Below are positions 28,410 to 35,011 of a DNA stretch of 64,000 nt, in pieces (within the stretch, counting starts at the first letter, position 1; each line of letters begins with the position of its first letter). Origin of the DNA: Crossiella equi (GTDB lineage Bacteria; Actinomycetota; Actinomycetes; Mycobacteriales; Pseudonocardiaceae); assembly GCF_017876755.1 (NCBI RefSeq), contig NZ_JAGIOO010000001.1:3333786-3397785 (forward strand), in the 5' to 3' direction. A program made the translations under genes and the position numbers. The notes beneath the pieces were generated by a model that had not been told where the DNA came from, searched no databases, and worked only from the letters and a program-made list of their open reading frames with translations.

Positions 28410-29390
28410 TCACCGCCCCCGGCGAGCCAAGATCAACCGCAGGACCGCCCGTTCCAGCGCGTACTCGGCATTGGCCGCCACGCCCTTCACGTCCGCGTTC
28501 AGCCCGGCGACCAGGTTCATGGCCTCGGCCAGCCCAGCGGGCTCCCAGCCCCGCGACTGCGCGAGCGCCTTCTTCACCTTCCACGGCGGCATGCCCAGCT
28601 GCCCGGCCAGCGCGAACGGATCGGCCCGCCCCCCGGCGGTCACCCGCGCGATGGTGCGCACCGCGTCCGCGAGCGCGTCGGCGACCAGTACCGGCGGCAC
28701 CCCCGTCGACAGGGCCCACCGCAACGCCTCCAGCGCCCCGGCCCGATCCCCGGTGACGGCCTTCTCCGCCACCACGAACCCAGTGACCTCGGCCCGCCCG
28801 CGGTGGTAGCGCCGCACGGCCTGCTCATCGACCTGGCCCCCGGTGTCGGCGACCAGCTGGGACGCGGCAGCGGACAGTTCCCGCAGGTCAGACCCGATGG
28901 TCTCGATCAACGCGGCCAAACCTGCCGGGTCGACCCGCCCGCCCGCCCGCCGGAACTCGTCCTTGACGAACGCCTCGCGCTCGGCGGGCTTGGTCAGCTT
29001 GGCGCAGGTGGTGACCTTGGCCCCGGCCTTGCGCATGGCGTCGGGCAGCTCCTTGGCGAGCTTGCCGCGGCCACCGCCGGTGTGCACGACCACCAAGATC
29101 ACCCCGTCGCTGGGCGCCTTGCAGTAGGCGACGACCGCCTCGGCGATCTCCTTGCCCGCCTCCTGGGCGGCCTCCAGGACGATGACCCGGCCCTCGGCGA
29201 ACAGTGACGGGCTCACCAGCTCGATCAGTTCGGGCGGGGTGAGGTCGGTCACCCGGACCTTGCGCAGCTCGGCCTGCGGATCGGCCAGCCGGGCGGCGTC
29301 CAGTGACGCCTTCACGGCCCGCTCGACCAGCAGTTCTTCTTCCCCGATCACCAGGTGCAGCGGCTCGGGGGTGACGGCTGGGGCGCTCAC
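28410..29390 (-). CDS. holA: DNA polymerase III subunit delta
   Basis: This 326-residue protein has the HolA pattern: L-H-L-V-I-G-E-E-E-L-L-V-E-R-A opening, L-F-A-E-G-R-V-I-V-L-E, V-H-T-G-G-G-R-G-K-L and the C-terminal helical A-L-E-R-A-V-L-R-L-I-L-A-R. It is the clamp-loader wrench that opens the beta clamp. GTG 29390 is preceded by AAAGGATTGAGGA; the longer frame to 29594 runs into the thrC riboswitch region and is not coding. In M. tuberculosis it is followed upstream by comEC; here thrC lies between them. Confidence 0.93.
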   Translation of the reverse strand: MSAPAVTPEPLHLVIGEEELLVERAVKASLDAARLADPQAELRKVRVTDLTPPELIELVSPSLFAEGRVIVLEAAQEAGKEIAEAVVAYCKAPSDGVILVVVHTGGGRGKLAKELPDAMRKAGAKVTTCAKLTKPAEREAFVKDEFRRAGGRVDPAGLAALIETIGSDLRELSAAASQLVADTGGQVDEQAVRRYHRGRAEVTGFVVAEKAVTGDRAGALEALRWALSTGVPPVLVADALADAVRTIARVTAGGRADPFALAGQLGMPPWKVKKALAQSRGWEPAGLAEAMNLVAGLNADVKGVAANAEYALERAVLRLILARRGR

Positions 29391-29504
29391 GTCCTCAATC
29401 CTTTCACGCCCCTCCGACAGCCCTGTCGGGTCCCGCATGCTGGACTTGCGGTGGCTCTCAGTGGCGACCGTGCCGTACGGTGGCCCTCGAACAACTGAAT
29501 ACAG

Positions 29505-29631
29505 CTCATCCAGAGGGGTAGAGGGATCGGCCCTACGACACCCCGGCAACCGGCACCGGCTCGACGCGTATTCCGCGAGGGAGCAGGTGACCACGGTGCC
29601 AAATCCGCCCCGCGCCAGCGGGAAAGATGAG
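29505..29631 (+). ncRNA. SAM-I (S-box) riboswitch controlling threonine synthase
   Basis: The core matches the S-box consensus in order: P1 strand CTCATC (29505-29510), AGAGGGGTAGAGGGA, CGGCCC, then CCCGGCAACC (ending 29551), GGTGCCAAATCC (29595-29606), a GC-rich P4 arm, and P1 strand GATGAG (29626-29631). The 3' P1 strand overlaps the Shine-Dalgarno GAGGAG (29629-29634), ten bases before the ATG. When SAM is bound and P1 closes, ribosome access should fall, giving translational repression. Direct binding is inferred from the conserved core. Confidence 0.93.
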
Positions 29632-29644
29632 GAGATACCTCGCG

Positions 29645-30913
29645 ATGACGACCATCGAGGTGCCCAACGGCGCCCAGCAGCAGACCCTTGACCTCGGCCC
29701 GGCGCGTGCGCTGGTCTGCCGGGAGTGCGGCCACCAGGTGCCTCTCGCCGCCGAGTTCGCGTGCGCGGAGTGTTTCGGTCCCCTGGAAGTCGGCTACGAC
29801 TTCGGCAGGGTCCGCCGGGAGGACATCGAGTCCGGCCCGCGCTCGATCTGGCGCTACCGCAACCTCTTGCCCGTCCCGTCCACTGTGGACGCCCACCCGA
29901 ACACCGACCCGGGCTGCACCCGGCTGGTCCGCGCGGACCGCCTGGCGGCCGCGCTCGGCGTCCGCCGGATCTGGGTGAAGGACGACACCGGCAACCCCAC
30001 GCACTCGTTCAAGGACCGCGTGGTCGCGGTCGCCTTGGCCGCCGCCCGTGAACTCGGCTTCACGGTGCTGGCCTGCCCCTCTACCGGCAACCTCGCCAAC
30101 GCCGTCGCGGCCGCCGCGGCCCGCGCGGGCTGGGAGTCGGTCGTGCTGATCCCCTCCTCCCTGGAGCGGGCCAAGATCCTCACCACCGCCGTGTACGACG
30201 GCGCGCTGATCGCCGTCGACGGCAACTACGACGACGTGAACCGTCTGGCCACCGAACTCGCGGCCGAACACGAGGACTGGGCGTTCGTGAACGTCAACGT
30301 CCGCCCGTACTACGCGGAGGGCTCCAAGACCCTGGGCTACGAGGTCGCCGAGCAGCTCGGCTGGCGCCTCCCGGACCAGATCGTGGTGCCGATCGCCTCC
30401 GGCTCCCAGCTCACCAAGGTCGACAAGGGCTTCCGCGAGCTCGGCGAGCTGGGCCTGGTCGAGCAGACCCCCTACCGCGTCTTCGGCGCCCAGGCCACGG
30501 GCTGCTCCCCCGTCGCCGCCGCCTACAAGGCCGGTCACGACGTGATCACCCCGGTCAAGCCGAACACCATCGCCCGTTCCCTGGCGATCGGCGCCCCGGC
30601 CGACGGTCCCTACGTCCTGGACACGGTCCGCCGCACCAACGGCGCCATCGAGAACGTCTCCGACGAAGAGGTCGTCGAGGGCATCCGCCTGCTCGCCCGC
30701 ACCGAGGGCATCTTCGCCGAGACCGCGGGTGGCGTGACCGTCGCGACGGCCAAGAAGCTCATCGAAACCGGCCAGCTGGACCCGGACGCCGAAACCGTCC
30801 TCCTGATCACCGGCGACGGCCTGAAGACCCTGGACGCCGTCCAGGACCACATCGGCCCCCGCGCCACGGTCCCGCCGTCGGCCGCCGCGGTCCACAAGGC
30901 CCTGGGCCTCTGA
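29645..30913 (+). CDS. thrC: threonine synthase
   Basis: This 422-residue PLP enzyme converts O-phosphohomoserine to threonine. An N-terminal zinc-ribbon-like C-R-E-C-G...C-A-E-C (about residues 25-45) is followed by the PLP Lys in N-P-T-H-S-F-K-D-R (Lys123) and the phosphate loop with S-T-G-N-L-A-N-A. The length and layout fit the actinobacterial/plant-like type. It is a single gene behind a SAM riboswitch and a strong terminator follows. It interrupts the usual holA-comEC neighbourhood. Confidence 0.93.
   Translation: MTTIEVPNGAQQQTLDLGPARALVCRECGHQVPLAAEFACAECFGPLEVGYDFGRVRREDIESGPRSIWRYRNLLPVPSTVDAHPNTDPGCTRLVRADRLAAALGVRRIWVKDDTGNPTHSFKDRVVAVALAAARELGFTVLACPSTGNLANAVAAAAARAGWESVVLIPSSLERAKILTTAVYDGALIAVDGNYDDVNRLATELAAEHEDWAFVNVNVRPYYAEGSKTLGYEVAEQLGWRLPDQIVVPIASGSQLTKVDKGFRELGELGLVEQTPYRVFGAQATGCSPVAAAYKAGHDVITPVKPNTIARSLAIGAPADGPYVLDTVRRTNGAIENVSDEEVVEGIRLLARTEGIFAETAGGVTVATAKKLIETGQLDPDAETVLLITGDGLKTLDAVQDHIGPRATVPPSAAAVHKALGL
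29878..29890. repeat. 13-bp palindrome GTCCACTGTGGAC
   Basis: It lies inside thrC and codes Ser-Thr-Val-Asp with the rare threonine codon ACT, the same as the lipase and permease copies. Confidence 0.8.
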
Positions 30914-30928
30914 CGCGAACACCTCACC

Positions 30929-30984
30929 ACCCGAAGGGTGTGCCACCGGGTCACAGCTGTGCCCGCCTGGCACACCCTTCGGGT
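30929..30984 (+). terminator. rho-independent terminator of thrC
   Basis: A 17-bp perfect stem (30929-30945 with 30968-30984), loop of 22 bases, is followed by TTCTTC. It starts 15 bases past the thrC stop. Confidence 0.9.
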
Positions 30985-31419: not shown

Positions 31420-34137
31420 TCACCGTGGGGCTCCCGTGGTCTGTTTGCCTCGGCGGAAGGCGGTGGGGCCTGGGGCGATCGCCAGGTCACCGTCCTGGTC
31501 GGTGCGGAGGGTCAGGGTGCCTTGGGCGCGGAGGGTGTCCAGGACCAGTGGGCTCGGGTGGCCGTAGTCGTTGTCCTTGCCCGCGCTGATCATCGCGATG
31601 CGGGGTCGGACCGTGGTCAGGAAGGTCGGGAGGCTGTAGCGGGAGCCGTGGTGGGGAACTTTGAGGATGTCCGCGGACAGGTCGGTTCCCTTGGCGTCCA
31701 ACAGGTCTGACTGACCGGCGAGTTCGATGTCGCCGGTGAGCAGCGCCCTGCCCGCGCTGGTGTGGGCTCGGATGACCAGGGAGGCGTCGTTGAGGGCGGT
31801 GCCGTCGGCGCGTTCTTCGGTGGCACCCAGGGCAGCGGGGCTCCGGGGTGCCAGCACGTCCAGGGTGAGGCCGGGCCACGCCGTGCTGGCGCCGGGGTGG
31901 AGTTCGATCAGGGGTACGCCCGCGGTGGCCGTTGTCTCGCGTACTTCTTTCAGGGCCCACTGGGGTTGTTGGACTGGGCTGAGGCCCACGGCGCCGACGT
32001 CGTGGTCGGCCAAGACCTCGCGGAGGCCTGTGATGTGGTCCGCGTGCAGGTGGGTGAGCAGTACCAGCGGAATCCGGGTGATGCCGAGGTCCCGGAGGCA
32101 GCTGGTGATCGCCACGGGGTCGGGGCCGGTGTCGACGAGGACAGCGCGGCCGGGTTCGGCGGTGGCCAGGACGATGGCGTCGCCTTGGCCGACGTCGCAC
32201 GCCACCAAGGCCCAGTTCGGGGGCGGCCAGCCCGGGCGGAGCAGACGGACCGGGATCAGGATGATGATCAGGAGGAGTACCAGGGCGATCAGCAGTGGGC
32301 GGATCCTGTTGTGCCGCAGGAGGACTGCCAGCCCTATGAGAACCGCGGCGAGGAGTAGCGCGCCGCCGAGGCCTGGTGGCCACGGGACGGTGGTCATGGG
32401 CAGGGCAGCGGTGTCGCGGGCGACTGTGACGAGCCACCAGACCTCCGGGGCTGCTAGGTGGACGAGAAGTTCGGCTGTGGGCAGGTGGAGCACGGACAGC
32501 AGGGCGGCGAGCAGGCCCAGGATCGTGGCCAGTGCGACCACCGGGGCGGCGAGCAGGTTGGCGAGGATCGCGGTCAGGCTCACCTCGCCTGTCATGCCCG
32601 CGACGACGGGTGCGGTGGCGAGGTGGGCTGCCGCCGGGACGGCCAGGGCTTCGGCCAGGCCGCGTGGGACGCCTCGGTCGTGGAGGCGGTCGGCCCAGCG
32701 GGGTGCGATGAGGACCAGAGCGGCCGTGGCCAGGACGGAGAGCACGAAGCCGAGGTCGTTCGCGAGCTCCGGGCTGGCCAGCAACAGGATCGTGATCGCC
32801 GCGGCCAGGGTTGGCAGGGCGGTGCGTTCACGGCCCGTGGTCAGGGCGTAGAGCGCGATGGCCGCCATGACAGCGGCACGCAGGACGCTCGGTTGTGGGC
32901 GGGCCAGGACGACGAAGCCGACCAGGGCGAGTGCGGCGGCGAAGGCTGAGGTGCGTGGGCCCGCGCGGAGGAGGCGGAAGAGGAGGAGGACCGCGCCGCA
33001 GACGATGGCGAGGTTCGTGCCGCTGACGGCCAGGAGGTGGGCCATGCCCGCGGCGCGGAAGTCGGCGATGACGCGTGGGGTGAGGGTGCTCGTGTCGCCG
33101 ACGACCAGAGAGGGCAGCAGGCCGCTTTGGTCTGGCGTCAGAACTTCGCTGGCCTGGTGGAGGCCTGCGCGGAGGCTGCTCGCGCCGCGTTGCCAGGGCG
33201 GGGGATCGTCGAGCAGTTCCGGTGGTTTGTGCACGCGCAGGACCGCGGCGGTCAAGTCACCGGGGTGGGGTGGGGCCAGTTTGCCCGTGGCGCGGAGGGT
33301 GTGGCCCGGGGTCGCGGTGGACCAGGAGCCGTGCATCGCGATCAGGAGGAGTCTGCCGCCGATGGTGATCGTGGTGCCGCTGGATGTTGTGGCGGTAATG
33401 AGCTCCAGGTCCAGGAGGGTGGCTGTGGTGGTGCTGGCTCGGCCGCCGTAGGCCGGGCCGCGCAGGGGGCGCGGATCGCCGACGATGGTGCCTGTGACGG
33501 TTGCCGTGGCACCTCGTTCGGACTCCGCACGCAGTGGATGTGTTGCGGCTGCGTGGGTTCGGAGTGCGATGCCGGTGGCGGCGGCTGCTGCCAGGGCGGT
33601 GGCGGTGAGGACGCCCGCGGTGATGCGGCGGCGGAGCGGGGCGGGTGTTCGGGGCCCGGATGCCGGTTGGGGCTCGGGGCTGGGGGCATCGCCGTCAGGT
33701 TGGGCGAGGCTGGGCGGGGTGTCGCCATCGGGCTGAGCGCGGTCCGGAGGCGTTCCGCCGTCAGGCTGGGTGTCGCCTGGTCGGTCGGCGCGAGGTGGGC
33801 GGTGGGTGCGGATCAGCTTGTGGGCGGCGAGCATCGCCGTGGCGGTGCAGAGGGCAGCGGCCAGTGCCGCTGGGAGCCAGCCGCCGTGCAGGCCGAGCAG
33901 GGTGACTGCCCAGGTGCTCAGGGCGGCGGGTACTAGACGCAGGTCCGGACCGGACGGTGGGTTCGGGTGGTCCTGCCGTGGGTGGAGCTCGGCGCGGAGA
34001 ACAAGTCGTTCGCGCGGTGCGCTGCCACTTCCCTCCTCTCCGCGCCTCGTCGCCGTGGGGTCGGGTTCTGCACGTGCTCCCCTCTCTCGTGCTTCGTCCA
34101 CGGCGATCTGCCGCAGCGAACGACGTGCTCTCCGCAT
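31420..34137 (-). CDS. comEC: ComEC/Rec2-type DNA uptake channel protein
   Basis: This 905-residue protein has an N-terminal soluble part, several TM helices with the ComEC core (A-H-L-L-A-V-S-G-T-N-L-A) and a C-terminal metallo-beta-lactamase-like nuclease domain with H-L-H-A-D-H-I-T-G-L. It would form the inner-membrane DNA channel and degrade one strand. ATG 34137 follows GAGGGGGATCC, a strong ribosome binding site. It lies 37 bases after comEA, in one operon. Counterpart of Rv2414c. Confidence 0.92.
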   Translation of the reverse strand: MRRARRSLRQIAVDEARERGARAEPDPTATRRGEEGSGSAPRERLVLRAELHPRQDHPNPPSGPDLRLVPAALSTWAVTLLGLHGGWLPAALAAALCTATAMLAAHKLIRTHRPPRADRPGDTQPDGGTPPDRAQPDGDTPPSLAQPDGDAPSPEPQPASGPRTPAPLRRRITAGVLTATALAAAAATGIALRTHAAATHPLRAESERGATATVTGTIVGDPRPLRGPAYGGRASTTTATLLDLELITATTSSGTTITIGGRLLLIAMHGSWSTATPGHTLRATGKLAPPHPGDLTAAVLRVHKPPELLDDPPPWQRGASSLRAGLHQASEVLTPDQSGLLPSLVVGDTSTLTPRVIADFRAAGMAHLLAVSGTNLAIVCGAVLLLFRLLRAGPRTSAFAAALALVGFVVLARPQPSVLRAAVMAAIALYALTTGRERTALPTLAAAITILLLASPELANDLGFVLSVLATAALVLIAPRWADRLHDRGVPRGLAEALAVPAAAHLATAPVVAGMTGEVSLTAILANLLAAPVVALATILGLLAALLSVLHLPTAELLVHLAAPEVWWLVTVARDTAALPMTTVPWPPGLGGALLLAAVLIGLAVLLRHNRIRPLLIALVLLLIIILIPVRLLRPGWPPPNWALVACDVGQGDAIVLATAEPGRAVLVDTGPDPVAITSCLRDLGITRIPLVLLTHLHADHITGLREVLADHDVGAVGLSPVQQPQWALKEVRETTATAGVPLIELHPGASTAWPGLTLDVLAPRSPAALGATEERADGTALNDASLVIRAHTSAGRALLTGDIELAGQSDLLDAKGTDLSADILKVPHHGSRYSLPTFLTTVRPRIAMISAGKDNDYGHPSPLVLDTLRAQGTLTLRTDQDGDLAIAPGPTAFRRGKQTTGAPR

Positions 34138-34174
34138 GGATCCCCCTCGTGGCCCGTGGGTCCGGCGCCTCAGG

Positions 34175-35011
34175 TCAGAGGCTGACCAGCTCACGGAGCC
34201 GGGCGAGGCGGGACGCTCCGATGCCCTCGATCTCGCGCAGCTGGTCGATCGAGGTGAAACGGCCGTGCTTGGTCCGCCACTGAACGATGCGTTGCGCCGT
34301 CACTGGACCTACTCCTGGCAGGGCGTCGAGGGCGGCGGGTGTTGCGGTGTTCAGGCTGACTCTGGCGGCGCCACCGGGGAACACGCCCTGGCTGTGTGCG
34401 GGCGGTTCCGCCGGTGGCGGTACTCCGACGTGCACTTGCTCTCCGTCGGCCAGCCTGCGGGCCAGGTTCAGCCCGCTGAGGTCGGCGTCGGGGTGTGCGC
34501 CGCCTGCCGCGTGCACGGCGTCGGCGACGCGGGCCCCTTCGGTGAGGGTGACCAGCCCGGGTCTGGTCACCCTCCCGACCACGCTGACCACCAGGGTGGC
34601 GCCGGGGCCGGTGGTGGTGGCGGACGTGATCGGAGGGGCGGCCGGGCCAGCCGCTGTCGCCAGTGCGGGAGCGTCCTCCCGCGTTGGCTGATCCGACCAC
34701 ACCAGCAGCGCGGTCGTCGCCACAGCCAGGAGTGCGACGACCGCGACTGCCAGTGCCGCCGGGCGACCGGGATCCCACCTGATGCCTCGGGCTCCACTCG
34801 GGAAGAGCCGTCGGAACCAGTTCGGGGGTCGGGACAACGGCCGGGCCGGCAGTCGGTGCCCTGACTCGTCCAGCTCGATGATCTCGATGTTCGCGAGCTC
34901 GGGCGGCGGGTCGGGGCCGGTTCTCTTGCGTGCGGCGGCTGCCAGTTCGGACAACCGGGCTTGCGCGGTGTCGCGTCGTTGTCGGGTTGCCGCGGAGAGG
35001 TAGCGCCACAT
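34175..35011 (-). CDS. comEA: ComEA-type DNA receptor with SLBB and helix-hairpin-helix domains
   Basis: This 278-residue protein has a cytoplasmic basic N-terminus (about residues 1-80), one TM helix (about 88-106), an SLBB-like domain (V-V-G-R-V-T-R-P-G-L-V) and a C-terminal double helix-hairpin-helix (S-L-N-T-A-T-P-A-A-L-D-A-L-P-G-V-G and G-I-G-A-S-R-L-A). It binds incoming double-stranded DNA and hands it to ComEC. The ATG at 35011 has a weak ribosome binding site. Two DnaA-type boxes lie 53 bases upstream. Confidence 0.92.
   Translation of the reverse strand: MWRYLSAATRQRRDTAQARLSELAAAARKRTGPDPPPELANIEIIELDESGHRLPARPLSRPPNWFRRLFPSGARGIRWDPGRPAALAVAVVALLAVATTALLVWSDQPTREDAPALATAAGPAAPPITSATTTGPGATLVVSVVGRVTRPGLVTLTEGARVADAVHAAGGAHPDADLSGLNLARRLADGEQVHVGVPPPAEPPAHSQGVFPGGAARVSLNTATPAALDALPGVGPVTAQRIVQWRTKHGRFTSIDQLREIEGIGASRLARLRELVSL

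Follow-up and report, generated by a model that had tools for sequence, protein, structure and literature searches.

A SAM-I riboswitch ahead of a probable metM gene without a neighbouring sulfur-carrier gene, between holA and comEC

A SAM-I riboswitch directly ahead of a gene of the annotated 'threonine synthase' type raises the question of why SAM should control an enzyme of threonine formation. The locus lies in a 64-kb stretch of Crossiella equi DNA, here called the window, whose source genome (G000) comprises 9.44 Mb in one contig. In a first-pass annotation of the window the gene was named thrC, and its repression by SAM was regarded as counter-intuitive. Here, we present evidence that the gene is very probably metM, predicted from its sequence to encode an enzyme that makes homocysteine from O-phosphohomoserine. 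If MetM makes homocysteine, repression by SAM becomes ordinary feedback on SAM's own supply, and the apparent regulatory paradox dissolves. In the mechanism that we propose, the riboswitch would lower the translation of metM when SAM is plentiful, and MetM, a paralogue of threonine synthase, would draw O-phosphohomoserine from the threonine branch and yield homocysteine. As metO is missing at the locus, MetM would most likely take its sulfur from a CysO-type carrier encoded beside a cysM-like gene. We regard this reading as a whole, in which SAM-I represses metM, MetM makes homocysteine and the sulfur most likely comes from CysO, as likely to be right.

The riboswitch and the enzyme are both of known kinds. 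As far as the literature was searched, the new elements are a metM that throughout one family lacks a carrier gene and lies between holA and comEC, and the prediction that one carrier serves two amino acids. The search for metM without metO found no published notice, which is no proof of absence, and the accessible part of PMC12172450 is silent on it. The features to which the argument refers are as follows.

28410..29390, - strand: holA neighbour, divergent (TIGR01128 above its cut-off)
29503..29633, + strand: aptamer of the SAM-I (S-box) riboswitch, P3 arm lengthened (RF00162, full length, 75.8 bits)
29505..29510, + strand: 5' strand of P1, CTCATC (six standard pairs with 29626-29631)
29626..29631, + strand: 3' strand of P1, GATGAG (pairs with CTCATC, all six pairs standard)
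29628..29642, + strand: competing hairpin TGAGG(AGATA)CCTCG, which excludes P1 (centroid fold, forced folds)
29629..29634, + strand: Shine-Dalgarno sequence (SD) GAGGAG, 10 nt 5' of the ATG, with 3 nt in common with P1 (from the sequence)
29645..30913, + strand: metM-like gene of 422 aa, annotated type 'threonine synthase', a PLP enzyme with an N-terminal four-cysteine ribbon (profile and structure matches, alignment)
30929..30984, + strand: likely intrinsic terminator, a 16-bp inverted repeat without mismatch, then TTCTT (from the sequence; a scan match at 30965-30984 lies inside)
31420..34194, - strand: comEC neighbour, convergent (TIGR00361 at 189.4 bits, just below the cut-off of 190.05)

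RF00162 (SAM-I) was the sole RNA family above its cut-off when the whole 64-kb window was searched with cmscan. The match on the + strand at 29503-29633 covers the model in full (positions 1-108; E 5.5e-16), and its score stands well clear of the gathering cut-off of 44.4 bits, so that the covariance search bears out the SAM-I identity proposed in the first-pass annotation. The overlap of the 3' strand of P1 with GAGGAG, also pointed out there, amounts to three nucleotides (29629-29631), and the same geometry of P1 and SD is seen in a near relative (L061). The start codon is read here as ATG 29645-29647; the ORF listing opens the frame earlier, at ATG 29627, within P1. A simple riboswitch pattern was read in 151 of 156 orthologue loci, with a wrong 5' strand in at least one (L174), and conservation was counted over 108 loci of the window's family and 43 others. 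The 5' strand CTCATC is present in all 108 family loci and the 3' strand GATGAG in 107, against 39 and 40, respectively, of the 43 loci of other families; the distance from P1 to the start codon is 8-16 nt in the parsed family loci. The aptamer is predicted to sense SAM. A relic, or an aptamer for some other ligand, is highly improbable, because the full-length match is strong and all 37 further orthologue loci scanned (20 + 17, of 156 loci) gave RF00162 above its cut-off. While the window element agrees with SAM-I RF00162 in matching the full-length consensus, it differs in that its target is annotated as a threonine synthase type, P1 lies over the SD, a hairpin competes for the SD, and no terminator was found ahead of the gene. 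This last point had been made earlier and is upheld by a simple terminator scan, which found no site between the aptamer and the gene; transcriptional control by the riboswitch was rejected on that ground. The sole match of the scan, where 0.7 were expected by chance, is 3' of the gene.

The pairing of this RNA with this gene extends far beyond the window. Of 200 genomes of the order, 146 contain an orthologue of the enzyme at E <= 1e-100; in the class, the enzyme is found at E <= 1e-60 in 195 of 296 genomes and SAM-I in 202 of 296. Pairing was counted by setting the best 150 riboswitch matches of the class against the best 150 enzyme matches plus that of G015. Thirty-one of the 150 listed riboswitch matches fell in genomes without a listed enzyme match, leaving 119 that could be compared. 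Among the matches listed, 118 of these 119 riboswitches precede the enzyme match by 14-85 nt on its own strand, and the sole non-adjacent one belongs to a genome with two riboswitches (G269). Because it is found at nearly every comparable locus, the association of SAM-I with the enzyme is a general feature of the clade and no oddity of a single genome.

What does the gene encode? The window protein, whose closest named relative is from Crossiella sp. (96-97% identity), passes the thrC model TIGR00260 (276.9 bits; cut-off 167.1). The canonical ThrC paralogue of the same genome passes as well (287.9 bits), and TIGR00260 therefore cannot tell the two apart. The window protein falls under the cut-off of PRK08197, the best-scoring NCBIfam threonine synthase model (281 versus 303 bits). 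Cysteate synthase was considered and rejected as its identity (76.7 bits against a cut-off of 324.9). A check for a second thrC, suggested in the first-pass annotation, turned up the canonical copy directly after hom, at 6135985, with thrB 3.8 kb further at 6140820. The product of this second thrC matches the solved threonine synthase 2d1f (E 3.9e-149) and is 34-36% identical to the window protein. A third threonine-synthase-like paralogue (L005; contig 1, 8394120-8395160) reaches the cut-off of none of the threonine synthase models listed.

The window protein also departs from canonical ThrC at the active site, having STGNL, NVRPYY and ASGSQ in place of STGNT, the NSVN...R loop and GNAGN, residues that we take to have functional roles in ThrC. 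In the alignment to canonical ThrC, Leu150 stands where ThrC has the last Thr of STGNT, and Tyr223 where it has the Arg of the NSVN...R loop, a loop whose alignment is gapped, each in 156 of 156 orthologue loci; GNAGN has become Ala-Ser-Gly (156/156 each), then Ser (149/156) and Gln (152/156). These changes support an altered reaction. They cannot name it, because a MetM-like cyanobacterial enzyme made threonine in vitro (PMC12172450). That enzyme, together with the TIGR00260 match, would also fit a true second threonine synthase under SAM repression, a reading that we consider quite unlikely: the genome already has a canonical thrC beside hom, the active-site changes are nearly fixed, the best-scoring NCBIfam model is missed, and members of the clade go with SAM-I leaders and, in many cases, with sulfur-carrier genes. 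The earlier suspicion that the gene serves another purpose is thereby supported, and the name thrC should very probably give way to metM. This suggests that in many actinomycete genomes one of the two copies is mislabelled 'threonine synthase', with consequences for pathway models. As a separate observation, 96 of 156 orthologue loci retain the cysteines of the N-terminal ribbon (window 29717-29773) at three positions, and 102 of 156 at the fourth; since other residues stand there in the rest, part of the clade seems able to do without a metal site.

The name metM comes from Streptomyces, in which a metM-metO pair reportedly forms homocysteine from O-phosphohomoserine (Hasebe et al. 2024, AEM). 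PMC12172450 describes Streptomyces MetM as a homocysteine synthase acting on O-phosphohomoserine, places a SAM riboswitch upstream of S. albulus metM, and mentions a sulfur-carrier annotation for a gene resembling S. albulus metO. The same paper describes the cyanobacterial homologue as 51.6% identical to S. albulus MetM and encoded beside a metO-like gene; methionine in cells was not raised. For S. lividans TK24, a table headed as RNA-seq-validated in PMC8079986 gives the transcript (SAM)-SLIV_16930-SLIV_16925, labelled threonine biosynthesis. There, as in the window, this Rfam family stands on a transcript assigned to threonine biosynthesis, the transcript comprising two genes there and a single gene here. 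With Streptomyces metM-metO the window shares a ThrC-like enzyme, distinct from canonical ThrC, under a SAM riboswitch, and its protein shares 66-67% identity with two orthologues from genus g78 of family f33, which is carrier-adjacent and which we take to be Streptomyces. It differs in that the gene has no adjoining metO, sits between holA and comEC, and belongs to a genome that keeps metX-metY.

How the riboswitch would act on metM is a question of which strands pair. In the proposed mechanism SAM would stabilise P1, whose 3' strand holds the first half of the SD, and without SAM the same strand could refold into a weak GAGG...CCTC hairpin that a ribosome could open. A GAGG-N3-9-CCTC helix that uses the same 3' strand as P1 is present in 97 of the 108 parsed family loci and in 11 of the 43 others. 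It occurs in 25 of 31 distinct tails, where base shuffling gives a mean of 0.58 and a maximum of 4; since the helix hardly varies and the shuffle ignores kinship, this provides no covariation support. By itself the hairpin comes to about -5 kcal/mol in most family tails, which is near the limit that ribosomes tolerate.

Computed folds of the window depend on the stretch that is folded. For 29480-29680 the minimum-energy structure contains P1 and the centroid contains the hairpin. For 29495-29700 forced P1 and forced hairpin tie at -79.0 kcal/mol, and the unforced fold, at -79.6 kcal/mol, has hairpin-type pairing. For 29495-29650 the 5' strand of P1 pairs instead with GATGA at the start codon, a motif found there in 93 of 108 family loci (a count without a control). 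When P1 is forced in the window, 29630-29634 are nearly all paired (unpaired probability at most 0.06), and forcing the hairpin instead leaves 29633-29636 open. All three 29495-29700 folds, with P1 or without, pair the start codon within a downstream hairpin. Without SAM, the computed preference for P1 has a median of 3.5 kcal/mol across loci. For SD opening, the energy cost was scored at 145 of the 156 loci (107 family, 38 other), counting only bases outside P1. With P1, opening is costlier in 5 and cheaper in 71 of the 107 family loci; for loci of other families the figures are 10 and 21 of 38. The SD overlaps P1 in 61 of the 107 family loci and in 20 of the 38 others, leaving 46 of the 107 family loci with no overlap. 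Taken alone, computed folding gives no support for repression.

These results bear on the first-pass claim that P1 blocks translation directly. The overlap of P1 with the SD in the window speaks for the claim, whereas by folding energy the SD is not harder to open with P1, and two pairings compete. They also invite the opposite reading of an ON switch, in which P1 formation would release either the SD, held in the GAGG/CCTC hairpin, or the start codon, paired with the 5' strand of P1, and SAM would raise expression. Such a switch would account for the conservation of a hairpin that in the window holds part of the SD, for SD opening that is cheaper with P1 at 71 of 107 family loci, and for the pairing of the 5' strand of P1 with the start codon in the 29495-29650 fold, where GATGA recurs across the family. 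We nevertheless think an ON switch unlikely: it makes poor sense for homocysteine supply, the hairpin alone is weak in most family tails, and in the window forced P1 hides 29630-29634 nearly completely. Known SAM-I switches repress. For the window, the best reading is that SAM-stabilised P1 would directly occlude the SD; this direction of control is preferred because of the metabolic logic and the overlap of P1 with the SD.

The inverted repeat downstream starts 16 bases after the metM stop codon and, with the TTCTT that follows it, makes metM probably a single-gene unit. The gene had been described as an insertion between holA and comEC, and this proves to be a position peculiar to the window's family: holA is beside the gene in 80 of 80 named family loci, 73 of which also have comEC, and neither is beside it at any of 48 loci of other families at E <= 1e-8 (a set that differs by two loci from the 48 used for carrier genes below).

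In several other families the enzyme gene has a sulfur-carrier gene beside it. Carriers were searched for in 62 chosen genomes, all with the enzyme, using the CysO-type carrier of G000 as the query. The genomes chosen from four other families (12 f33, 6 f34, 5 f31 and 4 f41) all, 27 of 27, encode a ThiS/CysO-type carrier no more than 200 nt downstream of the match to the enzyme, and each has at least one further carrier elsewhere; in Nonomuraea gerenzanensis the carrier gene starts 24 nt after the enzyme stop codon. The same search covered 35 genomes of the order and found no carrier within 1 kb of the enzyme in any of them. By tblastn, a carrier lies within 1.2 kb downstream of metM in 0 of 108 loci of the window's family versus 32 of 48 loci of other families. 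The 108 comprise 28 loci of family f1 (L032-L059) and 80 named ones (L061-L140), pooled on the strength of name and identity; the set may contain several loci of one species as well as MAGs and Actinopolyspora, and all have at least 1,488 nt of downstream sequence except one with 58 nt. A hidden metO 3' of the window gene was rejected: none of the ORFs of at least 30 aa on the way to comEC looked like a carrier.

A quick tree of 64 sequences, 14 of them from the family, makes the window's family one clade (SH-aLRT 100) and places it, with moderate support (81 and 87), among carrier-adjacent lineages. The carrier-adjacent state changes five times on this tree, at least two of the changes being forced by well-supported branches; the root is unsure because the outgroup branches are very long. 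A loss of the linked carrier in the window's family is likely on this evidence, and the number of losses is uncertain. Outside the order as well there are metM genes with no carrier within 1.2 kb, among them those of G206, G230, G210 and G237 and others from families f23, f27 and f46 (among loci L142-L159, L168 and L185), so the state is recurrent.

In Mycobacterium tuberculosis, the PLP enzyme CysM takes sulfur from the carrier protein CysO and makes cysteine from phosphoserine. The window protein resembles CysM in its PLP enzyme family, with cysteine synthase B / O-phosphoserine sulfhydrylase among the structure matches; the tuberculosis system differs in making cysteine, and in G000 the carrier and cysM-like genes stand together, away from metM. 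The carrier gene of G000 is of the close CysO type and lies directly ahead of the cysM-like gene, whose product passes TIGR01136 cysKM and falls below the cut-offs of the CysM equivalog models. Every one of the 26 family genomes searched has one such close carrier (74-100% to the query), and 11 of the 26 have a distant second carrier (33-42%). In G000 the second carrier is ThiS/SAMP1-like and 41% identical to CysO (L011 1495-1773; contig 1, 3022908-3023195); in G162 and G192 the distant-carrier match contains a stop codon.

The missing carrier gene thus leads to a sharp and testable prediction, namely that a single sulfur carrier supplies both cysteine and methionine synthesis here, with MetM drawing on CysO. 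A carrier-free MetM that uses free sulfide or another donor, and leaves CysO to CysM alone, strikes us as possible but doubtful. It would fit the 0 of 108 family loci with an adjoining carrier gene, and G000 has in MetY another sulfhydrylase. Against it, the CysO-type carrier is kept in all 26 family genomes searched, which bears on its presence and not on its use, and relatives elsewhere adjoin a carrier gene, which bears on linkage and again not on use. A wider form of the shared-carrier prediction is that in Pseudonocardiaceae and several other actinomycete lineages CysO feeds both CysM and MetM after the loss of MetO, and that the SAM riboswitch sets, through MetM alone, the share of carrier sulfur that goes to methionine; we would expect this to prove right about as often as wrong.

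As G000 also carries metX and metY, MetM is not its only predicted route to methionine, and the genome may have two. MetA was found in 0 of 26 chosen genomes, with 8 of 14 controls positive. Nine carrier-adjacent g78 genomes have no MetX above cut-off and no MetA; at least 6 of 27 g78 genomes have MetX. Two genomes from another family of the order, G015 and G028, have the enzyme, the riboswitch and one CysO-type carrier each, and by profile search they show neither MetA nor MetX above cut-off (weak matches only) as a fallback. Because MetX and MetA were not found there and the CysO-type carrier is single, a shared carrier is the simplest reading for these two genomes, barring a route missed by the models used.

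G000 has one other SAM-I element, at L002 1501-1673 (contig 1, about 5629832-5630004; 52.3 bits). The 3' strand of its P1, GATGGA, seems to cover the SD of a 25-codon ORF that ends in Cys-Arg-Cys. A metN-like ABC gene, at 287 bits below the MetN cut-off of 499.7, follows about 130 nt further on, and the short ORF, which has no NCBIfam match, may encode a leader peptide.
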